Shown here: positions 9,934 to 32,688 of the stretch, piece by piece
How the letters are laid out: each line of letters begins with the position of its first letter
How positions within the stretch are numbered: the first letter of the stretch is position 1
NCBI RefSeq assembly: GCF_000383915.1
Contig: NZ_KB912942.1
Location: forward strand, 5,172,367-5,236,366
DNA length: 64,000 nt
Origin: Amycolatopsis benzoatilytica AK 16/65
GTDB lineage: Bacteria; Actinomycetota; Actinomycetes; Mycobacteriales; Pseudonocardiaceae
Direction of reading: 5' to 3'
Position numbers and translations under genes: made by a program
The notes under the pieces: model-generated
Database searches by the model: none
The model's input: the letters and a program-made list of their open reading frames with translations, nothing else
What the model was told of the DNA's origin: nothing

Positions 9934-10167
9934 TTGCCGTTCGCTGACGACGGTTCGGGCAAGTGTGGCTGCCCAGCACCGTCAGAGCCGAGCGGTTTCT
10001 TTGACGACAGCAGGTTCTGACTCTCGCCGTTCAGCGGCGACAACGTGCCAGGAGCCGCTGGCAGGAAGGGACGGATTGCCCTCGCCGTTCAGGGGCGACG
10101 GTAGTGAGCAACAGGCATGCCGGGAGCCGACCGGAATGGCGAAGCGGGTGTCGCCAGAAATCGGCAA
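9934..10167. repeat. Cluster of four 17-bp palindromic elements (TCGCC-N7-GGCGA family)
   Basis: The 342-bp convergent gap 9860-10201 has no gene but holds four family copies. They are TTGCCGTTCGCTGACGA (9934, degenerate), TCGCCGTTCAGCGGCGA (10024), TCGCCGTTCAGGGGCGA (10082) and TCGCCAGAAATCGGCAA (10151), spaced 58-90 bp apart. The 10024 copy is identical to one at 18217. Confidence 0.8.
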
Positions 10168-14058: not shown

Positions 14059-14898
14059 ATGTCCGCGCACATCGCCGTAGTCACCGACTCGACCTCGTGC
14101 TTGCCCGAGCAGCTCGCCGCCCAGTGGCGAATCGGCGTCGTCCAGGTTCAGCTGCACGTCGGAGACCAAACGGACGACGAGCACCGCTTCGATCGGGGCG
14201 AGCTCGTCCAGGCCATGAAGTCCGGCACGACCGTCACGACGTCCCCGCCCGATCCAGGCGCGTTTTTCTGGGCCTACCAGGACGCGGCGTCGGCCGGTGC
14301 GTCGGCGATCGTGAGCCTGCACATCTCCGGACGGCTGTCGCAGACCGTGGAAGCAGCGCGGGAAGCCGCCCAGCAGGTGCGGATCCCGGTCCACATCCTC
14401 GACAGCGGAACGGCCAGCATGAGCCTCGGCTACGCGGCGATCTCGGCAGCGCGCGTCGCGGCTGCCGGCGGACAGCTCGAACGGGTACTGGACGCCGCCG
14501 AACGCCGGGTCCGCAACTCGACCGAGATCATCTACGTCGACACGCTCGAGTACTTGCGGCGATCGGGACGGATCGGCGCGGCCCAGTCGATGCTCGGAAG
14601 CGCGTTCGCGATCAAGCCGCTGCTCACCGTCCGCAATGGCGAGGTGAGCCCTCTCGCCCGGGTTCCAGGCGCCAAGCGGGCGATGAACCGGCTCGTCGAC
14701 CTGGCTGTGAAGGCGGCTGGCGACCAGCAGGTGGACCTCGCGGTAACCCGGTTCGGTTCCGACGAGAGCGAGGTCGTCCGGCGGCTGCGCGAACGGGTGC
14801 CGGGCGCGGGCGAGATCGTGGTGGCCGACGCGAGCACCGTGATCGGCGCCCACGTCGGCCCGGGCGCGCTCAGCATCACGGTGTCGCCGACGAACTGA
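14059..14898 (+). CDS. DegV family fatty-acid-binding protein
   Basis: 279 aa. The family signature VVTDSTSCLPEQLAAQWRI begins at residue 5. Further conserved segments are SGTTVTTSPPDPGAFFWAYQ, IVSLHISGRLSQTVEAAREA, ILDSGTASMSLGYAA and DTLEYLRRSGRIGAAQSMLG. DegV/FakB proteins bind a fatty acid and present it to a FakA-type kinase; no fakA is visible here, so use by another acyl-handling system is possible. A TACGCT box (14045-14050) ends 8 nt before ATG 14059, suggesting a leaderless mRNA. Its 3' end overlaps the convergent membrane-protein gene by 23 bp. Confidence 0.92.
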   Translation: MSAHIAVVTDSTSCLPEQLAAQWRIGVVQVQLHVGDQTDDEHRFDRGELVQAMKSGTTVTTSPPDPGAFFWAYQDAASAGASAIVSLHISGRLSQTVEAAREAAQQVRIPVHILDSGTASMSLGYAAISAARVAAAGGQLERVLDAAERRVRNSTEIIYVDTLEYLRRSGRIGAAQSMLGSAFAIKPLLTVRNGEVSPLARVPGAKRAMNRLVDLAVKAAGDQQVDLAVTRFGSDESEVVRRLRERVPGAGEIVVADASTVIGAHVGPGALSITVSPTN

Positions 14899-16134: not shown

Positions 16135-17660
16135 GCACCCGGAACCCGGAATACGAAGGAACGTTCTGCCTCGTCCTGCACAGCCACCTGCCGTGGCTAC
16201 CGCATCACGGCAACTGGCCGGTCGGCGAGGAATGGCTGTACCAAGCGTGGACGCATTCGTACCTGCCGGTGGTCGACCTGCTGCGCCGTTTCGCCGCCGA
16301 GGGGCGACGCGACGTGCTGACGCTCGGCATGACGCCGGTCCTCGCAGCGCAGCTCGACGATCCATACGCCATCCGCGCCTGTCACGACTGGATCGGCCAC
16401 TGGCAGCTGCGCTCGCAGCACGCATCGACCCTGTGGCGCGGCGACCCGCTGCTGCGCGACCTCGCTGCGGCCGAGCACCAATCCGCGGTTCACGCCGCCG
16501 AGGAACTGGAAACGCGCTGGCGGCACGGCTTCTCGCCGATCCTGCGGTCGCTTGTGGACAGTGACACGATCGAGCTGATCGGCGGACCGCTAGCGCATCC
16601 GTTCCAGCCCTTGCTGGACCAGCGGGTGCGCCAGTTCGCCCTCCAGGCCGGCCTGGAGGACACCGCGCTGCGCATCGGCCGGGCACCAGAAGGTATTTGG
16701 GCACCTGAATGCGGTTATGCACCGGGAATGGAACGAGACTATCAGGACGCGGGAGTCCGGCGCTTCCTCGTCGACGGGCCTTCACTCCGTGGTGACACTT
16801 CGTCCGCGCATCCTGTCGGGGACTCCGACGTCGTCTGCTTCGGCCGCGATCTCGAGGTCACGTACCGGGTTTGGTCGCCGAAAGCTGGCTATCCAGGCCA
16901 CGCCGCGTACCGGGATTTCCACTCCTGGGCGCACGAGGTCGGCCTGAAGGCGTCCCGCGTCACGGGAAAAACCGTTGAGCCGCAAGATAAAGCACCGTAT
17001 GAGCCGGCGCTGGCCGCAGAGGTTCTCGGCTCGCATGTGAAGGACTTCGTCGAGACAGTCGTCGCCCGGTTGCGCTCGCTCCGTGAACAACGCGGCCGCG
17101 AGTCACTGGTCGTCGCCGCGTATGACACCGAACTGTTCGGCCATTGGTGGCACGAAGGTCCCGCGTGGCTCGAAGGAATCTTGCGCGCCCTGCCCGAAGC
17201 GGGAGTCCGGGTGACCACTCTGCGCGGAGCTCTCGAAGCTGGACACCTCGGGGAACCGGTCGACCTGCCGGCTTCTTCCTGGGGCTCCGGCAAGGACTGG
17301 CGGGTCTGGGACGGCGAACAGGTCGCCGACATGGTGCAGGACAACGCCGCACTCCAAACCCGGCTGCTCGACCTTGTCGATGCGCACGAGGGGACCGCTC
17401 GCGACGCCGTCGCCGACCAGGCAGTCGTGGAAGCGATGATGGCCTTGTCCAGCGACTGGGCCTTCATGGTCACCAAAGACTCCGCCGCCGACTACGCCCG
17501 CCGCCGCGCCCGCGTGCACACCGAGCGATTCGACGCACTGGCCGGCCTGCTCCGCAGCGGGGACCGCGCTCGCGCCCTCGCGCTAGCCGCTGAATACCGT
17601 CGGGCCGACGGCCCGTTCGGCCACCTGGACGCGCGCGCCCTGCGCCGTCCTCCCGCATGA
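16131..17660 (+). CDS. GH57 1,4-alpha-glucan branching enzyme, Rv3031-like
   Basis: 509 aa. The protein opens with the GH57 first motif FCLVLHSHLPWLPHHGNWPVGEEW. Further on are GRAPEGIWAPECGYAPGMERDY (carrying the expected catalytic Glu in the WAPECGY motif), RVWSPKAGYPGHAAYRDFHSW, then YDTELFGHWWHEGPAWLEG (catalytic Asp region), and a C-terminal helical DUF1957-type domain. Rv3031 is the proposed branching enzyme for the methylglucose polysaccharide; a role in glycogen branching cannot be excluded. GTG 16131 overlaps the preceding methyltransferase stop (GTGA). Confidence 0.92.
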   Translation: MSTRNPEYEGTFCLVLHSHLPWLPHHGNWPVGEEWLYQAWTHSYLPVVDLLRRFAAEGRRDVLTLGMTPVLAAQLDDPYAIRACHDWIGHWQLRSQHASTLWRGDPLLRDLAAAEHQSAVHAAEELETRWRHGFSPILRSLVDSDTIELIGGPLAHPFQPLLDQRVRQFALQAGLEDTALRIGRAPEGIWAPECGYAPGMERDYQDAGVRRFLVDGPSLRGDTSSAHPVGDSDVVCFGRDLEVTYRVWSPKAGYPGHAAYRDFHSWAHEVGLKASRVTGKTVEPQDKAPYEPALAAEVLGSHVKDFVETVVARLRSLREQRGRESLVVAAYDTELFGHWWHEGPAWLEGILRALPEAGVRVTTLRGALEAGHLGEPVDLPASSWGSGKDWRVWDGEQVADMVQDNAALQTRLLDLVDAHEGTARDAVADQAVVEAMMALSSDWAFMVTKDSAADYARRRARVHTERFDALAGLLRSGDRARALALAAEYRRADGPFGHLDARALRRPPA

Positions 17661-18216: not shown

Positions 18217-18412
18217 TCGCCGTTCAGCGGCGATACGGTTCGTGACCGCCTGCGGCGAGCGCGGCACCAGAAGCAGCCGGCGGTCGCCGCGGGTCCGTCT
18301 CCAGCTGCCGCGCAGTCGTCGCTGTTTACTGGCGAATCCACCGCCATGAACGCCGGACCGGCCTCCTCCGCCGCACCGGATGTCTCGTGACAGTCTCGCC
18401 ATCCAGCGGCTA
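18217..18412. repeat. Cluster of three 17-bp palindromic elements
   Basis: The gap 18170-18420 between convergent genes carries TCGCCGTTCAGCGGCGA (18217), TCGCTGTTTACTGGCGA (18319) and TCGCCATCCAGCGGCTA (18396). The first is identical to the copy at 10024 and starts 2 bp after the terminator stem. Confidence 0.8.
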
Positions 18413-18420
18413 ATCGCAGG

Positions 18421-20235
18421 TCAGCCGCCCTGTGCGGCATCTTTATGCGGTTCGCCAACGGTCTTCACCACTGGATGCGAACCCCGCACGATCACCGCTC
18501 GGTTGTGGTTCGCGGCGTCGACGAAGTCAAGCTTCTGGACGCGCCGGTCGTAGGTGAGGAGGCCGTTCACTTCATTTTCGACATCCGTCGTCTGAGTGTA
18601 GATCGCGCCGGAGAGACCGCGGTCGGAAACCAGCCGTTCGAGGCGTTCGCTGACCTCTGCGTACCGGCGGGTGAGATGCGCGGAATCCGTCGTCATTTCG
18701 TAGGCGTTGGGCGGACCAGGCCAGCGGTGGTCGTCGAGAACCAGTCCGAGGCCACCATATTCGCCGTCGACCAGTGCACGACTGTCCCCGTCGTGCGGTT
18801 CGCCCGGCCCGACATACGTGTGGTCGTCGTAGATATCGCCGGCACCGGTGTCCGGACGGGAGAAACAACAGTTCACCCCGCTGTTGGCGACCACCAGCCG
18901 CGTCGGGTCGAGTTCTTTGACGAGCGCTGCGATCCGGGCTGTGTCGAATTCTCCCCAGCCCTCGTTGAACGGCACCCACGCGACGATCGACGGGACGTTG
19001 CGCAGCTGAGCGACCAGTTCCCGCAGCTCCGCCTCGAACCGCCGCTGGCCCTCGGGCAATGGATCCGGCGCGTGCCCAGGCGGCCCTGCGAACGACACGA
19101 CCAGCGACGGCATGTCCTGCCATACCGCCAGACCCAGCCGGTCTGCCCAGTAATACCAGCGGGCGGGCTCGACCTTGCCATGCTTTCGGACCAGATTGAA
19201 CCCGAGTTCTTTCGTCTTCTCGAGGTCGAACCGGAGCGCCTCGTCGGTCGGCGCGGTGTAACCGCCGTCCGGCCAGTAGCCCTGGTCGAGTGGTCCGTGC
19301 AGGAAGGTGACCCGACCGTTCAGCGCAATCCGCGACTGTCCGTTGACATCCGGGACAATTTCTACCGTTCGCAGGCCGCAATAACTGGCCACCTCGTCCA
19401 GGACGTCACCGTGCGCATTCAGCAGACGCACTGTGAGGTCGTAAAGAAATGGATCGTCCGGCGTCCACAGATGCGGCTCGGGAAGGTCAGCCCGCAGCCG
19501 TCCGCCGGCCGGGCCGCGGACGCACACCACGCCGTCGCCAGTTGGCGGCGAAACCGCCAGTTCCACTTCAGTTCCGCCCGTAACCTGCGGGAACACCGTC
19601 ACGCCGGACAAGTCGGAGGAGATCTCGAGCGCGGAAATCCGGTCCGTGGGCACCGGTTCGAGCCACACGCTCTGCCAGATTCCCGACATCGACGTGTAGC
19701 AAATCCCGCCCGGTTCGTTACGTTGCTTGCCGACCGGGTAGGGCTCGATGTCTGTGCGGTCCTCGGCGCGAATGGCGATTTCCTGCGGCCCGGATGCACG
19801 GAGCGCATCGGTGATGTCCGCGGAGAACGCGGTGTACCCACCCTCGTGAGTGACCACCGATTGGTTGTTGACCCGCACCTCGGCTTTCTGGTCGACTGCG
19901 CCGAGATGCAGCAACACTCGTCGCCCGTGCCAGCCATCCGGAATCTCGAACAACCGCCGGTACCAAAGGACTTCGTCACGCCGGCCGATCCCGGACAACG
20001 CGGATTCCGGCGCGAACGGAACCAGAATGCGCTCGTTGTAGCCGACCGGCCGTGGCCCGGTCGGCGAGGCCGGCCAGCCGGCGTACTCCCAGATGCCGTT
20101 GAGGTTAAGCCAATCCGGTCGGCGGAACTGAGGTCTCGGGTACTCGGGCAGCACCGCGGAGGGATCGACTTGGTCAGTCCACGGGGTGGTCAGCAGCGGT
20201 TCGACGCGTCGCCAGTCAGGCTCTGGTTGAGTCAT
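18421..20235 (-). CDS. Glycoside hydrolase family 2 protein (beta-galactosidase/glucuronidase-like)
   Basis: 604 aa. The GH2 architecture is a sugar-binding jelly roll (about 30-195, with PRPQFRRPDWLNLNGIWEYAG and GIWQSVWLEPV), an immunoglobulin-like sandwich (about 196-290) and the TIM barrel. The proton donor is Glu425 in VPFNEGWGEFD; Glu492 in VDGEYGGLG is the likely nucleophile. There is no signal peptide, so an intracellular glycosidase is expected; the sugar specificity is unknown. Residues 229-234 read SPPTGD, encoded by a copy of the dispersed 17-bp palindrome (19535-19551) in the sandwich domain. It is inserted between the GH57 and GT4 genes of the methylglucose locus. ATG 20235 begins MTQPEPDWRRVEP. 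Confidence 0.9.
   Translation of the reverse strand: MTQPEPDWRRVEPLLTTPWTDQVDPSAVLPEYPRPQFRRPDWLNLNGIWEYAGWPASPTGPRPVGYNERILVPFAPESALSGIGRRDEVLWYRRLFEIPDGWHGRRVLLHLGAVDQKAEVRVNNQSVVTHEGGYTAFSADITDALRASGPQEIAIRAEDRTDIEPYPVGKQRNEPGGICYTSMSGIWQSVWLEPVPTDRISALEISSDLSGVTVFPQVTGGTEVELAVSPPTGDGVVCVRGPAGGRLRADLPEPHLWTPDDPFLYDLTVRLLNAHGDVLDEVASYCGLRTVEIVPDVNGQSRIALNGRVTFLHGPLDQGYWPDGGYTAPTDEALRFDLEKTKELGFNLVRKHGKVEPARWYYWADRLGLAVWQDMPSLVVSFAGPPGHAPDPLPEGQRRFEAELRELVAQLRNVPSIVAWVPFNEGWGEFDTARIAALVKELDPTRLVVANSGVNCCFSRPDTGAGDIYDDHTYVGPGEPHDGDSRALVDGEYGGLGLVLDDHRWPGPPNAYEMTTDSAHLTRRYAEVSERLERLVSDRGLSGAIYTQTTDVENEVNGLLTYDRRVQKLDFVDAANHNRAVIVRGSHPVVKTVGEPHKDAAQGG
19535..19551. repeat. 17-bp palindromic element inside the GH2 coding region
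   Basis: TCGCCAGTTGGCGGCGA on the plus strand. On the coding (minus) strand it reads TCG CCG CCA ACT GGC GA, giving Ser-Pro-Pro-Thr-Gly-Asp, the same frame as the copies in the NlpC/P60 gene. Confidence 0.75.
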
Positions 20236-20597: not shown

Positions 20598-20650
20598 CTG
20601 CCGGACAACGGTGAACTCACCATGCAGAAGCCGTCGCCACTTTCCGGCAA
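20598..20650. repeat. Pair of 17-bp palindromic elements in the GH2-GT4 intergenic gap
   Basis: The 535-bp divergent gap 20236-20770 contains no convincing gene. It holds CTGCCGGACAACGGTGA (20598, partly degenerate) and TCGCCACTTTCCGGCAA (20634), 36 bp apart. At its right end a TAACCT box (20759-20764) precedes the GT4 start by 6 nt. Confidence 0.65.
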
Positions 20651-20770: not shown

Positions 20771-22027
20771 ATGCGCGTGCTGATGCTGTCCTGGGAGTAC
20801 CCGCCGGTGGTCATCGGCGGACTGGCCCGGCACGTCCATGCGCTGGCTAGGCATCTCGTCCAGCAGGGACACGAGGTCGTGGTCCTCTGCCGGCACACCG
20901 CGGGGACCGACGCGTCGACGCATCCGCGCAGCGATCGGGTCGTCGACGGAGTCCGGGTCATCCGCGTGGCGGAGGACCCGATGCACCTCACTTTCGAGCG
21001 CGACCTCGTCGCGTGGACGCTGGCGATGGGGCACGCCATGATCCGGGCCGCGCACGATCTCCTGCGCGCCTGGCAGCCCGATGTGGTGCACGCCCACGAC
21101 TGGCTGGTCACTCACCCGGCCATCGCGGTCGCGGAGGCGGCGCGGGTTCCGCTCGTCGGCACGATCCACGCGACTGAGGCCGGCCGGCATTCGGGGTGGC
21201 TGTCGCATCCGTTGAACCAGCAGGTGCACTCGGTGGAGTGGTGGCTGGCCAACCGCTCCGACGCGGTGATCACTTGTTCCCAGGCGATGCGGAAAGAAGT
21301 CGCGCACCTCTTTGAAATCGATCCGGCCGACGTCGCGGTGATCCACAACGGCATCGAAGGCCGCAGTTGGCGGGTGTCGTCTGGCGAAGTCGAACGGATG
21401 CGGGACCAGCACAGCCCGGACGGTGCTCCGTTCCTGTTGTTCTTCGGCAGGCTCGAGTGGGAAAAGGGTGTGCAGGACCTGCTGGCCGCACTGCCCCGGA
21501 TCCGGCGGCAGTTCCCGGGGACAAGGGTCGTCGTCGCCGGAAAAGGGCGACATCACGACGAGCTCGTAGCACAGGCTCGCAAGCTGCGGATTCGCCGGGC
21601 AGTCGACTTCGTCGGACACCTGTCCGACCGGGATTTGCGCGCGCTCCTGGCCGCGGCCGACGCGGTGGTGCTGCCCAGCCGGTACGAGCCGTTCGGAATC
21701 GTCGCGCTCGAGGCAGCGGCCGCAAAAGCGCCGCTGGTGGCATCGACCGCAGGCGGTCTCGGCGAGGTCGTCATCGACGGGGAAACCGGGTTGGCGTTCG
21801 CGCCTGGCGACGTCACCGGGCTCACCAAAGCGGTGACGACAGTGTTGAACGACGTCCCGTCCGCGACCCGACGTGCGCGGGCTGCCCAAGGCCGGCTCGC
21901 GGCGGACTTCGACTGGGGCCGGATCGCGGAGGCGACCGTCGAGGTTTACCGACGGGCCCGGGTGGGCGAACCAGTGGAGCTCGGGCGGCCGAAGATCGCT
22001 ACCGGGAACGCGTTCGAGGTACAGTAG
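20771..22027 (+). CDS. GT4 alpha-1,4-glucosyltransferase, Rv3032-like (GlgA/MGLP elongation type)
   Basis: 418 aa. A GT-B glycosyltransferase beginning MRVLMLSWEYPPVVIGGLAR, the sugar-nucleotide-dependent glycogen-synthase-like N-terminus. The donor domain has LFFGRLEWEKGVQDLLAALP and the EX7E motif PSRYEPFGIVALEAAAA. Rv3032 elongates the alpha-1,4-glucan backbone of methylglucose lipopolysaccharide and contributes to glycogen and capsular glucan. Its branching enzyme and methyltransferase lie upstream at 15.4-17.7 kb, separated by the GPx and GH2 genes. A TAACCT box just upstream suggests a leaderless mRNA. Confidence 0.92.
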   Translation: MRVLMLSWEYPPVVIGGLARHVHALARHLVQQGHEVVVLCRHTAGTDASTHPRSDRVVDGVRVIRVAEDPMHLTFERDLVAWTLAMGHAMIRAAHDLLRAWQPDVVHAHDWLVTHPAIAVAEAARVPLVGTIHATEAGRHSGWLSHPLNQQVHSVEWWLANRSDAVITCSQAMRKEVAHLFEIDPADVAVIHNGIEGRSWRVSSGEVERMRDQHSPDGAPFLLFFGRLEWEKGVQDLLAALPRIRRQFPGTRVVVAGKGRHHDELVAQARKLRIRRAVDFVGHLSDRDLRALLAAADAVVLPSRYEPFGIVALEAAAAKAPLVASTAGGLGEVVIDGETGLAFAPGDVTGLTKAVTTVLNDVPSATRRARAAQGRLAADFDWGRIAEATVEVYRRARVGEPVELGRPKIATGNAFEVQ

Positions 22028-22054: not shown

Positions 22055-22158
22055 TTGCCGATTGGTGGCGAATCTGGTCGGGCGGCTGAAGCACCTGCTC
22101 GCCGTTTGTAGCGTGAGCTGCGAGGCGGCTGGTGGAGAGCTTCGCCGGTCCGCAGCGA
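22055..22158. repeat. Cluster of three 17-bp palindromic elements downstream of the GT4 gene
   Basis: TTGCCGATTGGTGGCGA (22055), TCGCCGTTTGTAGCGTG (22099, weak) and TCGCCGGTCCGCAGCGA (22142) are spaced 43-44 bp apart. The 536-bp gap 22028-22563 holds these and a terminator; no convincing gene is visible. Confidence 0.65.
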
Positions 22159-27259: not shown

Positions 27260-28516
27260 GTGCAGGACATCGACACGGTGAACGCAGAACTGGTCGAGCA
27301 GGCCGCCGCTCGTCTCGCGGGCGTGGTCACGCGGACGCCTCTCGAACCCAACGCGCGGCTCTCGTCGCGCGTAGACGCGCGCGTCTGGCTCAAGCGCGAG
27401 GACCAGCAGACGGTCCGTTCGTACAAGATCCGAGGCGCGTACAACTTCATCGTGCAGCTCGACGCTGCAACGCGGGAGCGGGGCGTCGTGTGCGCGAGCG
27501 CGGGCAACCACGCGCAAGGTGTCGCGTACGCGTGCCGTCGGCTTGGAGCAGACGGCCGCGTCTACGTGCCGGGTACTACGCCTCGCCAGAAGCGTGAGCG
27601 CATCGCGGCGCTCGGCGGGACGCACATCGAGGTCATCGTTGTCGGCGAGACGTACGAAGATGCCTTCGCGGCGGCTCAGGATGACGCCCGGCGCACGGGG
27701 GCGACGCTCGTGCCTGCGTTCGATGACGTCCGCACTGTCGCCGGTCAGGGCACGGTGGCCGTTGAGGTGGTTTCGCAGCTCGGGTTCGTCCCGGACGTCA
27801 TCGTGGTGCCGGTCGGCGGCGGCGGATTGCTCGCCGGGATCGCGACCTGGGTCCGGGAGCGGCACCCGGAGATCCGAGTCGTCGGCGTAGAGCCGGCCGG
27901 CGCGATGTGCATGGCGGCCGCGCTCGAAGCGGGCTCGCCGGTGCGGATCGACTCGGTCGACCCGTTCGTGGACGGTGCGGCGGTGCGCGAGGCGGGGAAG
28001 GTGACCTTTCCGTTGATCCGCGACAGCGGCGCGGAACTGACCTCGATCGCCGAGGGTGCGGTGTGCACGGAAATGCTCGCGTTGTACCAGTCGGACGGGA
28101 TCATCGCCGAGCCCGCGGGCGCACTCGCCGCTGCGGCGCTGGGGACGAGCGTGCAGGTCGAGCCGGGTCAGACGGTGGTGTGTGTCGTGTCCGGCGGCAA
28201 CAACGACGTCAGCCGCTACAGCGAGATCCTCGAGCGTTCACTGATGCACGAGGGGCTGAAGCATTACTTCCTCGTCAGCTTCCCGCAGGAACCCGGCTCG
28301 CTGCGCCGGTTCCTTGACGAGATCCTCGGGCCGGAGGACGACATCACCCGGTTCGAGTACGTGAAGCGCAACAACCGGGAGATCGGGCCGGCACTGATCG
28401 GCGTCGAGATCCCGCGCCGGGCAGACCTTCCGGGCTTGCTGGCACGGCTGGAGAAGAGCCCGCTGCAGGTGGAACGGGTGGAGCCGGGGAGTCCGTTGTT
28501 CCATTTCCTGCTCTGA
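27260..28516 (+). CDS. ilvA: Threonine dehydratase (biosynthetic)
   Basis: 418 aa. PLP enzyme converting threonine to 2-oxobutanoate, the entry step of isoleucine synthesis. Lys56 in TVRSYKIRGAYNF binds PLP; VGGGGLLAGIATWV is the phosphate-binding glycine loop, and SGGNNDVSRY follows. The C-terminal domain (about 335-418, YFLVSFPQEPGSLRRFLDEIL) is a single ACT-like regulatory domain, as in corynebacterial IlvA, so isoleucine feedback is expected. The start is a GTG placed 7 nt after a TACATT box. Confidence 0.95.
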   Translation: MQDIDTVNAELVEQAAARLAGVVTRTPLEPNARLSSRVDARVWLKREDQQTVRSYKIRGAYNFIVQLDAATRERGVVCASAGNHAQGVAYACRRLGADGRVYVPGTTPRQKRERIAALGGTHIEVIVVGETYEDAFAAAQDDARRTGATLVPAFDDVRTVAGQGTVAVEVVSQLGFVPDVIVVPVGGGGLLAGIATWVRERHPEIRVVGVEPAGAMCMAAALEAGSPVRIDSVDPFVDGAAVREAGKVTFPLIRDSGAELTSIAEGAVCTEMLALYQSDGIIAEPAGALAAAALGTSVQVEPGQTVVCVVSGGNNDVSRYSEILERSLMHEGLKHYFLVSFPQEPGSLRRFLDEILGPEDDITRFEYVKRNNREIGPALIGVEIPRRADLPGLLARLEKSPLQVERVEPGSPLFHFLL

Positions 28517-28592: not shown

Positions 28593-28650
28593 TCGCCACC
28601 TCAGGGCGAGTCGTTTCCGCAGGTCAGCAAGTTTCGCCAGAAAACGGCAA
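28593..28650. repeat. Pair of 17-bp palindromic elements between ilvA and the SnoaL-like gene
   Basis: TCGCCACCTCAGGGCGA (28593-28609) and TCGCCAGAAAACGGCAA (28634-28650), 41 bp apart, sit in a 141-bp convergent gap. The second differs from the 10151 copy at one base. Confidence 0.75.
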
Positions 28651-29993: not shown

Positions 29994-30941
29994 ATGGGGA
30001 CCAAGCTGATCATCGACACCGATCCCGGGGTCGATGACGCTTTCGCGATCGCACTGGCCGCGAGGTCGGAGGACGTCGACCTGCTGGGCGTCACGACCGT
30101 CTTCGGGAACGTGCCGCTGGCCACCACGACGTCCAACGCGCGCCGGTTGCTGCAGCTGTGCGACCGGCCGGACGTCCCGGTCGCGGCAGGCGCCGCGCGG
30201 CCGCTTGTTTACCGCGAGCTGCACCGAGCCAGCACCGTGCACGGTTCGGACGGATTGTCCGGACGCGGCGGTTCGCTGCCGGAGGCCACCCGTCCGCTTG
30301 AAGACTCGGACGCGGTGAGCCTGATGGTCTCGCTGCTCGAAGCCGCGGACGAGCCGGTGACCATCGCTCCGATCGGTCCGCTCACGAACATCGCCGCCCT
30401 GCTCGCGGCACACCCTGGCGTGCGGTCGAAGATCGCGCGGATCGTCCTGATGGGCGGCGCGATCGTCCGTGGCAACGCGACCGCGGTCGCCGAGTTCAAC
30501 ATCTGGGCCGACCCGGACGCGGCGCGACGGGTGATCGTCGAGGACGACGTCCCGTGCGTGATGGTCCCTCTCGACCTCACCCACCGCTGCGCCGTCGACG
30601 GCGAATGGCTGGCGAAACTCGCCGCGTCCGGGCCGGTGGGGCAGGCGCTGAACGGGTTCACGCCGGACTACCTCGCGCACTATCGGCAGGTGCTCGGCTA
30701 CGAAGGCATCGTGATGCACGACGCGGTGGCGGTCGCCGAAGCGATCCGGCCGGGCCTCCTGCGCACGGAGACGCATCCGGTCAACGTCGATTCGACGCCC
30801 GGCCCGACTCGCGGCATGACGATCGTCGACCAGCGGGCGGTGCCGAAGGCGCCGACCGGACGGCTGGTCGAGGTGGCGGTCGACACGGAACTGGACGGGC
30901 TGCGTGAGTTCGTGCTGTCGAGACTCGCCGGGGGTCGGTGA
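29994..30941 (+). CDS. Inosine/uridine-preferring nucleoside hydrolase
   Basis: 315 aa. IUNH family: the calcium-binding N-terminal motif DTDPGVDDAFAIAL (8-21) is complete, followed by NPLTNIA-type VTIAPIGPLTNIAALLA, VLMGGAIVRGN and AEFNIWADPDAARRV, and C-terminal MHDAVAVAEAI carrying the last Asp ligand. It hydrolyses ribonucleosides to base and ribose; specificity is uncertain. GGGGAGCAGG is the ribosome binding site of ATG 29994. Its stop overlaps the start of the NlpC/P60 gene (TGATG). Confidence 0.94.
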   Translation: MGTKLIIDTDPGVDDAFAIALAARSEDVDLLGVTTVFGNVPLATTTSNARRLLQLCDRPDVPVAAGAARPLVYRELHRASTVHGSDGLSGRGGSLPEATRPLEDSDAVSLMVSLLEAADEPVTIAPIGPLTNIAALLAAHPGVRSKIARIVLMGGAIVRGNATAVAEFNIWADPDAARRVIVEDDVPCVMVPLDLTHRCAVDGEWLAKLAASGPVGQALNGFTPDYLAHYRQVLGYEGIVMHDAVAVAEAIRPGLLRTETHPVNVDSTPGPTRGMTIVDQRAVPKAPTGRLVEVAVDTELDGLREFVLSRLAGGR

Positions 30942-32521
30942 TGGCGGCGGTCGGGGGGTCGCCGTTTGACGGCGAGTCGCAGGTCGGGGCCAGCTCGGGG
31001 GGCGGCGGCGAGTCGTTGCCGACTATTGGCGACGGGGCTGGCGGCTCCTCGGCCGCGAGCGGCGGAGCGTCGGGCAGCGTGTCGCCGACGGATGGCGAAA
31101 GCTTGGCCAACGGGGGCGGGTCGCCGGCAAACGGCGACGCCGCAGGAGCCGAGGGCGCGTCGCCGGTAAGCGGCGAAACCGCGAAGGGCGAGCGTGGGTC
31201 GCTAGTAGGCGGCGACAACGTGACGGGCGAGCGTGTGTCGTCGCTTACCGGCGAAGAGGCCGGCGAGCTGTCGCCGCTCAATGGCGACAGCCCCGGTCTC
31301 CCGGCACAGAGCGGCGAGATTTCTACGTCGACCAGCGTGTCGCCATTGGGTGGCGAAACGGCTGAGCCCTCGAGCACCGGGACCGTGGGTCCAGCGAAGG
31401 CGGGCTTTCTTGCCCGGAATCGGCGAGTCGCGGTCGTGCTGGCGACGGTTGTCGTGGTCGTCGCCGCGGTGACGGTCGCGTTCCAGGTTCTGCCTGGCGG
31501 TCGTGGCCAAGCGGAGCCCGGGAACGTCGCGGCGACGTCGGCGCCCGCTCCGGCGAGCGCGGCTGCCTCGTTGCCGCCGTCGGCGTCCGCGGTGCCAGCT
31601 CAGCCGGGCGTGCCGCAGCCAGGCGAGTTCGGGCCGTGGGCGTCGCGGACGAGTCAATGGCTCGACATCCCGCTGCGGGCGATGAACGGGTACGCGCAGG
31701 CGACCGTCACGCTCAGCAAGGAACAGCCGGAGTGTCACCTTTCCTGGATAACCCTTGCCGCGATCGGGAAGGTCACCAGCGACCACGGGCGTGCGCAGGG
31801 TGGCCACATCGGCGACAACGGGACTCTCGGTAAGCCGCTGGGCACCGTCGAAGTCCGCGACTTCTACCACCGCGTCGTCTCGACGCCGGGTGCTGCCGGG
31901 CCGTTGCAGCTCTCCCCCGAGGTGTGGTCGAAGTGGCAGCGGAGCGCGTCCGGCGGCAAGCCGGACATCCAGAACGTCGACGACGCGGCCCTCACCGCCG
32001 GCCGGGCGCTGTGTGCGAATGGTCGCGATTTGGCGACGGACTGGTGGAACGGCGTCGCCACGCTAGAACCGGCGCCGGTCGTCCTGCACCGGACGCTCGC
32101 GACGATGAACGTCTACGGCACGGTCGGCCAAAGCGCCCAGCCGCCGAACCCGGCAGTCCTGACCGCGGTCGACTTCGCGATCGACCAGATCGGGCTCCCC
32201 TATGTCTGGGGCGGCAACGGCACCCACGACGCGGATCCCGGATTCGACTGCTCGGGCCTGACGACAGCCGCGTACGCGAGCGCGGACATCAAACTGATGC
32301 GCACGGCCGACACGCAGTTCCGCAGCGTCACCCGCGTGAACGAGCCGCAGCTGGGCGACTTGATCTTCTACGGCGAGCCGGCCACGAAGATCCATCACGT
32401 GGGGCTGTACATCGGGAACCAGCAGATGATCGACGCGCCCCAAACCGGGCAAGCGGTGCAGGTTCATCCGTACCGGAAGCCGGGCGACGACTACGCGGGT
32501 GCCGGGCGGCCTACTGCTTGA
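30941..32521 (+). CDS. NlpC/P60 cell-wall hydrolase with transglycosylase-like domain and a repeat-built cytoplasmic tract
   Basis: 526 aa. Residues 1-145 are a low-complexity tract with nine to ten S-P-x-x-G-D/E motifs, several at exact 13-residue intervals (SPTDGE 49, SPANGD 61, SPVSGE 74). One transmembrane helix follows (about 163-183), then a Pro/Ala linker. Next is a lytic-transglycosylase-like domain (about 240-400: IPLRAMNGYAQA, CHLSWITLAAIGKVTSDHG) in which the catalytic Glu position is Thr279. The C-terminal NlpC/P60 peptidase has Cys437 (FDCSGL) and His486 (HHVGLYIG). The expected role is peptidoglycan stem-peptide cleavage outside a type II membrane anchor. ATG 30941 overlaps the nucleoside hydrolase stop; GTG 30938 is possible. 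Confidence 0.85.
   Translation: MAAVGGSPFDGESQVGASSGGGGESLPTIGDGAGGSSAASGGASGSVSPTDGESLANGGGSPANGDAAGAEGASPVSGETAKGERGSLVGGDNVTGERVSSLTGEEAGELSPLNGDSPGLPAQSGEISTSTSVSPLGGETAEPSSTGTVGPAKAGFLARNRRVAVVLATVVVVVAAVTVAFQVLPGGRGQAEPGNVAATSAPAPASAAASLPPSASAVPAQPGVPQPGEFGPWASRTSQWLDIPLRAMNGYAQATVTLSKEQPECHLSWITLAAIGKVTSDHGRAQGGHIGDNGTLGKPLGTVEVRDFYHRVVSTPGAAGPLQLSPEVWSKWQRSASGGKPDIQNVDDAALTAGRALCANGRDLATDWWNGVATLEPAPVVLHRTLATMNVYGTVGQSAQPPNPAVLTAVDFAIDQIGLPYVWGGNGTHDADPGFDCSGLTTAAYASADIKLMRTADTQFRSVTRVNEPQLGDLIFYGEPATKIHHVGLYIGNQQMIDAPQTGQAVQVHPYRKPGDDYAGAGRPTA
30959..31356 (+). repeat. In-frame array of 17-bp palindromic elements in the NlpC/P60 gene
   Basis: Nine 17-mers of the TCGCC-N7-GGCGA type start at 30959, 31016, 31082, 31121, 31160, 31199, 31238, 31271 and 31340, with a tenth degenerate copy at 31301. 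Examples are TCGCCGTTTGACGGCGA (30959), TCGCCGGTAAGCGGCGA (31160) and TCGCCGCTCAATGGCGA (31271). Five consecutive starts are exactly 39 nt apart (17-nt repeat, 22-nt variable spacer). Every copy is in the frame encoding S-[P/L/S]-x-x-G-[D/E]. Confidence 0.88.
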
Positions 32522-32632: not shown

Positions 32633-32688
32633 GGCTCGGGTATCTGCGACCGCTCGCCAATTGGCTCGCCGGCGCGGATACCCGAGCC
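32633..32688. terminator. Long hairpin between convergent genes
   Basis: GGCTCGGGTATC (32633-32644) pairs perfectly with GATACCCGAGCC (32677-32688); the loop contains a nested GCCAATTGGC palindrome (32656-32665). It lies in the 233-bp gap after the NlpC/P60 gene and before the stop of the SRPBCC gene. Confidence 0.65.

Follow-up and report, generated by a model that had tools for sequence, protein, structure and literature searches.

The closest described systems are chromosomal binding sites and palindromic repeats of other bacteria. In Escherichia coli, the MatP/matS system uses a 13-bp site, matS, that occurs 23 times in the 800-kb Ter macrodomain (PMC3330122). In Bacillus, the TetR-family protein RefZ binds near-palindromic motifs (RBMs) at positions conserved relative to oriC (PMC6657595); five of these motifs exist, two per arm and one near oriC (PMC6657595). 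ParB acts as a dedicated protein that binds parS and also half-sites (PMC10419367), and the NBS sites of Noc are likewise bound by a dedicated protein (PMC4331003). Rickettsia palindromic elements (RPEs) are palindromic repeats that lie in frame within genes of no common descent as well as at other places (PMC10969869); further papers cited are PMC5023128 and PMC6749651. The present analysis concerns a 64,000-nt stretch of Amycolatopsis benzoatilytica AK 16/65, hereafter the window, and a short palindrome with the loose pattern TCGCC-N7-GGCGA that recurs there between genes and, as an in-frame array, within an NlpC/P60 wall-hydrolase gene. The window corresponds to C1:5172367-5236366 of the 8.70-Mb single contig of the source genome, labelled G000; other genomes carry labels of the same kind, and copies matching both arms of the loose pattern are termed exact.

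The palindromes are constrained at the DNA level, concentrated in one chromosomal block, placed at positions shared between species and jointly absent, together with the hydrolase array, from one species, G055. They are probably the sites of a putative dimeric DNA-binding protein that marks a mid-arm chromosome domain, with the peptide tail of the hydrolase as their host, a reading that leans on analogy with the systems above. We infer that the sites are read by such a protein, which would organise, position or mark the domain. The initial annotation of this DNA contained neither the block nor its loss in G055, and the arrays in two further genes are likewise new; among the hits listed in searches of open-access full text, no description of the palindrome element was seen.

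The array in the NlpC/P60 gene

The NlpC/P60 gene occupies window positions 30938..32521 on the forward strand as an open reading frame of 527 aa, starting at GTG 30938 or at ATG 30941, which overlaps the stop of the preceding gene. Its product matches Pfam NLPC_P60 at residues 419-515 (E 3.6e-24) and is matched in 80 of 80 Amycolatopsis genomes at E<=1e-40; the hydrolase domain is 91-92% identical to those of six named Amycolatopsis species. The N-terminal tail is encoded by an array of nine palindromes (30959..31356, +) in SPxxG(D/E)-type units. Six copies are exact (30959, 31082, 31121, 31160, 31271 and 31340) and three carry one arm mismatch (31016, 31199 and 31238). All nine share the frame of the 30938/30941 start, and an additional poor copy lies near 31301, in agreement with the initial annotation of nine copies plus one degenerate. 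Directly past the array, a copy at 31410 with one mismatch is out of the array frame.

The five consecutive starts described as exactly 39 nt apart (31082, 31121, 31160, 31199 and 31238) are indeed so spaced, and Tandem Repeats Finder places an array of 39-nt period there (31118-31255; 72% matches). The statement that all copies encode SPxxG(D/E) proved too broad: it holds for six of the nine, and the remaining three read LPTIGD (31016), SLVGGD (31199) and SSLTGE (31238). After the array, the translation shows a basic stretch and then one hydrophobic helix (31400..31500, +), a presumed membrane anchor. Judged from its position ahead of these two features and from the positive-inside residues, the array tract would be cytoplasmic, on an N-in anchor. 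Just 3' of the gene, two adjacent 28-nt arms at window 32633-32688 are 82% complementary and could form a terminator stem.

Constraint on the DNA of orthologous tracts

The N-terminal tract is present in 16 of the 17 genomes whose hydrolase domain is at least 83% identical. Direct inspection showed it to be missing from G055 and from four outgroups; the other Amycolatopsis were judged by site counts, which cover all 51 loci. Resampling codons for the same peptide gave the G000 array a mean of 1.48 exact palindromes and a maximum of 5 in 1000 runs, compared with 6 observed. Across the 16 orthologous tracts, 130 exact palindromes were seen, against 35.3 (maximum 53) when codons were drawn from genome usage and 27.4 (maximum 41) when they were drawn from the tracts' own usage. 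The G021 tract shows little excess, its 3 exact copies falling within its resampling runs (mean 1.84, maximum 5).

Codon choice inside the SPxxG(DEN) motifs of the 16 tracts differs sharply from that around them. Serine is TCG in 138 of 144 motif positions and in 275 of 592 other tract serines, proline is CCA or CCG in 138/144 against 154/239 elsewhere in the tracts, and glycine is GGC in 140/144 against 259/669; the rows behind these counts are related by descent, and p-values overstate their independence. The proposal that the arms are conserved as DNA is borne out, with TCG and GGC nearly fixed in the motifs and not elsewhere in the tracts. The intergenic and coding copies form one sequence family, and the suggested common origin stands. 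Neither refuting outcome, SPxxGE kept with differing synonymous codons or a constant tract in species lacking the intergenic element, was observed.

Within limits set by the script, the shortest tail has 122 residues and the longest 458, and the motifs number 5 to 16. One proposed check was whether tract length varies in steps of 39 nt; large variation in frame-keeping steps was found, but unit spacing differs by lineage and takes values of 21, 33, 36, 39 and 54 nt. In G046 and G068, the NlpC/P60 tail consists of a long Ala/Ser/Thr-rich stretch followed by a short palindrome array at 21-nt spacing. A protein search with the whole tract (residues 1-290) scored 7993 candidates, none at E<=0.001; the query is of low complexity and the result uninformative.

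Consensus and chromosomal block

In G000, 27 of the 75 exact genome copies fall within 192 kb (5,015,730-5,207,433), 23 of them from 5,080,759 on, in the last 127 kb, and four in a thin far part at 5.0157-5.0433 Mb. In G071, 53 of 94 exact copies lie in 210 kb of a 9.68-Mb genome (3,792,156-4,001,952). These block limits were drawn by eye after the sites had been seen, and single sites within them, such as that at window 35051, may be chance. The blocks examined were those of G000, G071, G068, G009, G059 and G021 (to about 69 kb upstream), plus those of G055, G006 and G063. The concentration of the palindrome in one block of about 200 kb and its upkeep inside genes through codon choice suggest selected binding sites.

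In both G000 and G071, the NlpC/P60 array marks, or nearly marks, the end of the block that faces the origin, and the exact-site lists of these two genomes show no mirror block on the opposite arm. The gene is 1.55-1.91 Mb from dnaA in nine genomes: 1.70-1.91 Mb in eight and 1.55 Mb in G073 (two contigs); for G009 and G048, the contig was treated as circular and the distance taken across its end. Because of this distance, an origin cluster is ruled out. G055, one of those eight genomes, has the gene at the conserved distance yet lacks the sites.

The consensus K-TCGCC-R-YTNAR-Y-GGCGA-M, with its dyad around one base, was obtained from 44 non-array sites of G071 (33 intergenic, 11 coding). Its counts were symmetrised, so that the symmetry of the letters is by construction; unsymmetrised array copies show similar half-site preferences. 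The other blocks agree with it, G068 more loosely, and in the array frame it translates as S-P-L-S/N-G-D/E. Since the loose pattern is noisy genome-wide, a strict consensus, TCGCCRYTNARYGGCGA, derived mainly from G071, was used for counting. Of the 16 tract genomes, 14 contain between 4 and 22 copies of it, whereas G055 has 0, the other 63 Amycolatopsis genomes have 0-2 and 310 genomes of other genera have 0-1.

Joint absence of sites and tract in G055

G055 is nested within the clade as sister to G009+G059, with support of 1.0 (54 proteins, 19,650 columns) and 0.997 (4 proteins); whether G046/G068 belong beside the outgroups is uncertain (support 0.299 and 0.764). The block of G055 is syntenic and keeps most block genes, several G000 genes being absent from it. 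Within 140 kb, this block contains 0 exact sites, and near-matches are at or below background. The NlpC/P60 gene of G055 has no tract and the comparable intergenic gaps are empty; the 41 exact matches found genome-wide form no cluster. On the proposed check of orthologues without intergenic copies, this one clade member without the element is missing the tract too, as are the four outgroup genomes viewed. Being nested and site-free, G055 is a natural control for finding the reader protein.

Sites in gaps and in ordinary genes

Between genes, convergent gaps are favoured, with 14 of 24 sites in G000 (6.6 expected) and 36 of 69 in G071 (16.8 expected). Divergent gaps hold fewer, 2 of 24 (6.0 expected) and 9 of 69 (17.1 expected), respectively. 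The same gaps are occupied across species in nine of ten tract-genome pairs (p 5e-8 to 0.011; p=0.13 for G068/G021), p-values that are overstated by the ancestry the genomes share. Occupied gaps hold 1 to 10 copies.

Ordinary genes also carry sites. With genes called by a crude script, which makes the coding and intergenic classes approximate, the exact coding sites outside arrays number 5 in G000, 6 in G071, 12 in G068, 20 in G009, 15 in G059 and 3 in G021, where synonymous permutation within genes expects 0.1-0.9 per block. Pooled over the six blocks, with array genes left out, 61 exact coding sites stand against 4.6 after permutation. Ten control patterns, five with a different gap and five with different arms, gave ratios of seen to expected of 0-3.8. 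No coding excess appears in G055 (0 vs 0.4), G006 (1 vs 1.2) or G063 (1 vs 0.5), and at 1 vs 0.6 a neighbouring region of the same genome shows none either. The non-array sites occur in all three frames.

Alignment with G055 was possible for 52 coding windows, drawn from 227 exact sites in five blocks with arrays included and orthologous sites counted once per species. Twenty encode identical peptides, 26 have changed residues without a gap, some of these being poor alignments, and 6 are gapped. Because permutation leaves 4.6 of the 61 sites and 46 of the 52 windows lack an indel relative to G055, the sites arise through codon choice and not through insertion alone. The initial annotation had also offered the tail as neutral host space for a DNA element. 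As a main idea this is disfavoured, since the sites enter conserved genes through codon choice and concentrate in one block, which points to selected binding sites.

The threonine dehydratase gene (window 27260-28516) illustrates this choice of codons. An exact site lies at the invariant peptide CRRLGA in 12 of the 14 tract genomes found, written TGT CGC CGY TTA/TTG/CTA GGG GCG. The rare leucine codon TTA (16 of 7005 leucine codons) stands there in eight of eight close relatives; because these eight share ancestry, it was retained rather than independently gained. The site is missing from G055 and the outgroups G006 and G054, which use common codons, and also from G000 and G059.

Four further exact sites lie inside genes of the window. 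Those in a GH57/branching-enzyme-like gene (16291..16307, +; FAAEGR) and a glycosyltransferase gene (21534..21550, +; VAGKGR) have the same peptide in G055 and no site there, the former with other codons; codon choice made both sites. At the site of a DegV-family gene (14114..14130, +; LAAQWR), three residues differ in G055 without a gap, and the alignment of a glycosyl hydrolase family 2-like gene (19535..19551, -; SPPTGD) with G055 is gapped. Between genes, a cluster at 10024..10167 comprises exact copies at 10024 and 10082 and a half-degenerate one at 10151, and the same gap is occupied in G071 and G009. The convergent gap with an exact site at 18217..18233 is occupied in G071, G068 and G009 and empty in G055, and that with a pair at 28593..28650 (exact 28593, half-degenerate 28634) is occupied in G071, G009 and G021 and empty in G068 and G055. 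Half-degenerate sites lie in a divergent gap at 20634..20650 (occupied in G071; empty in G068, G009 and G055), in a convergent gap at 22055..22071 (occupied in G021) and, as a further intergenic copy, at window 9308.

Proposed explanation

The proposed explanation takes the repeats for DNA sites and not for a protein motif. Several lines show selection at the DNA level for a dyad-symmetric sequence of 17-19 bp in one regional block, which spans about 200 kb and lies 1.55-1.91 Mb from dnaA. Its sites lie in intergenic gaps, preferentially convergent ones, and, through codon choice, in ordinary genes; dense in-frame arrays occur where the encoded peptide is tolerated, in N-terminal tails and an enzyme loop. 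A putative dimeric DNA-binding protein would read them, in the manner of MatP/matS, ParB/parS or RefZ/RBM. The hydrolase's SPxxGE tail would then be mainly a translated site array that tandem duplication has enlarged, located where the domain begins on its origin side. Such a tail is most readily understood as a by-product, and the disorder of N-terminal tails may be why it is tolerated.

The half-sites bear on the dimeric protein. Block sites pooled from five related genomes are TC..GA in 156 cases, TC..AA in 102, TT..GA in 44 and TT..AA in 4 (p=1e-5), so that the doubly changed, fully paired TT..AA form is depleted. Among two-mismatch copies with one change per arm, 43 of 542 are compensatory. 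Because the doubly changed paired form is depleted and compensation is not enriched, the pattern fits a dimeric protein that requires at least one good half-site.

Several observations weigh against this explanation. A MatP search was negative in all six genomes examined and positive in its E. coli control, and MatP is rejected as the reader. ParB_N identified one protein per genome in eight of nine genomes, G055 included, and two in the outgroup G006; no extra ParB was found in the seven clade genomes searched, and in all seven genomes with a mapped dnaA the ParB_N protein is less than 10 kb away from it. G046 and G068 carry tracts and many loose-pattern sites and have 0 strict-consensus matches. 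The loose pattern does not separate tract genomes either, since it reaches 78 copies in G034 (control 32) and 77 in G019 (control 32), both outside the clade; G012 has 67 (control 27), and these are dispersed. The central pair 7-9 is Watson-Crick in 76 cases against 64 expected, a slight excess that a pairing stem would explain as well as a dyad. Two further genes with arrays, described below, show the sequence appearing in new genes, as a mobile element would, and a regulator/kinase pair of the block is unbroken in the site-free outgroups G006 and G063. The shared ancestry behind the p-values and the argument by analogy for a role of the palindromes in chromosome organisation belong to the same side of the balance.

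Other reader candidates were sought among block genes, with domain scans of some of them and the comparison confined to the blocks. A MerR/HEAT pair is not kept in all tract blocks, and a TetR gene is present in G071 and G068 and not in the G009 and G059 blocks; both were set aside. Among the genes looked at, a response regulator with its kinase, discussed below, was the one DNA-binding candidate to be kept in G071, G068, G009 and G059 yet broken in G055.

It is a tentative suggestion, somewhat short of an even chance, that these features together may represent a previously undescribed actinobacterial domain system. In it, a dimeric protein would bind dozens of palindromes over a mid-arm block of about 200 kb, selection would override codon bias and stretch three unrelated proteins, and the site set would have been lost in one species. 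If true, a domain-marking site system would operate away from the origin in Amycolatopsis, a genus known for antibiotic producers. The case shows selection on DNA sites that acts through synonymous codons and in-frame protein extensions, so that in some bacterial proteins low-complexity repeats may be arrays of binding sites in translated form.

Alternative explanations

A selfish palindromic element, like the RPE, could insert in gaps or in frame and expand by tandem duplication. This is unlikely, yet it draws strength from in-frame arrays in three unrelated genes, namely the NlpC/P60 gene, a FecCD siderophore permease gene and a FakA-like kinase gene. In G071, the FecCD gene has an open upstream extension with eight frame-0 sites and one other (L103:5537-7501, -), and the extension in G000 has three frame-0 sites and one in another frame. 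The G068 orthologue has a long Ser/Ala/Thr repeat extension without palindromes, and the G009 sites close to FecCD do not share one frame. Open frames with at least three frame-0 sites also occur antisense to arrays and in gaps; because the palindrome is the same on either strand, an open frame is by itself no proof of coding.

The FakA-like kinase of G068 contains a 172-aa insert in its DAK2 region, with seven frame-0 sites in 36-nt units (L122:11812-13983, +). Its sister G046 has an insert of 90 residues with four sites, and 15 other genomes have none. In blastn at E 1e-3 against the sequences compared here, the insert matched itself only and none of the other arrays, and for this reason it looks to have grown in place. 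Besides this insert, the 46 of 52 alignable windows without a gap relative to G055 and the lack of overall hairpin compensation speak against a selfish element, which also hardly explains the concentration in one block and the complete absence from G055.

The palindromes could instead be operators through which a transcription factor controls a regional regulon, an explanation of low probability. The dyad is odd-centred and operator-sized, and the G000 block contains an OmpR-type response regulator with a histidine kinase (5105363-5107536, -) that has near-full-length unbroken matches in G071, G068, G009 and G059. In site-free G055, the matches are pieces in different frames, as broken genes would give, a break that may be chance; the stretch of G021 covered ends short of this pair. 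Divergent gaps, which hold promoters, are under-occupied, however, and arrays and sites lie within genes. Because outgroups without sites keep the regulator unbroken, it is a weak lead that could explain no more than a part. Direct repeats are the usual targets of OmpR-type regulators.

RNA stem-loops 3' of genes, as terminators or mRNA stabilisers, would account for the preference for convergent gaps and the small Watson-Crick excess of pair 7-9. They are improbable. Watson-Crick pairs fall below expectation at 5-11 (50 vs 66) and 6-10 (44 vs 54), compensatory arm pairs are depleted, and block sites show no overall hairpin-like compensation in the arms or in these two pairs. Moreover, the would-be loop YTNAR is itself dyad-symmetric, intragenic sites occur in all three frames, and the palindrome is concentrated in one block.

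Slightly less credible still are polar sites acting on replication or on a DNA translocase, as a fork trap or KOPS-like signal. Half-degenerate copies are polar relative to the replichore, with GGCAA on the NlpC strand in 102 cases and TTGCC in 44 (p=2e-6; pooled G000, G071, G068, G009 and G021). The core site is symmetric, though, and the polarity is weak in G009 (p 0.12) and G021 (p 0.63); it may reflect replication-strand mutation bias or function. Strand-biased C-to-T mutation could give replichore polarity. Finally, selection on the SPxxGE peptide alone would suit the exact copies of the NlpC/P60 tracts, which sit in the SPxxG(D/E) frame, but it is very improbable and a protein-level motif is contradicted by the codon tests, with synonymous codons near-fixed in motifs and not in spacers and the same DNA found intergenically and in other frames.

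Comparison with known systems

The explanation by a putative dimeric protein invites comparison with each of the systems introduced above. Like matS, the palindromes repeat within one chromosome domain (27 of 75 exact copies in G000, 53 of 94 in G071). They differ in forming what is, by its distance from dnaA, probably a mid-arm block, with dense arrays partly in genes, in genomes among which six were found to lack MatP, and the matS sequence itself differs from the palindrome. As with RefZ and its RBMs, the sites lie at a distance conserved relative to the origin, but there are dozens of them in one block on one arm. Compared with ParB/parS and Noc/NBS, the block is remote, at 1.55-1.91 Mb from dnaA, and no additional ParB occurs in the seven clade genomes; the parS consensus is unlike K-TCGCC-R-YTNAR-Y-GGCGA-M. 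A hairpin preserved by base pairing, as in an RPE or REP, is not borne out, since compensatory changes are in no excess in the arms or at 5-11 and 6-10, with a slight surplus at 7-9. RPEs share the in-frame position in unrelated genes, yet they are inserted units of about 150 bp, whereas the palindromes of Amycolatopsis measure 17 bp, arise also by codon choice and gather in one block.

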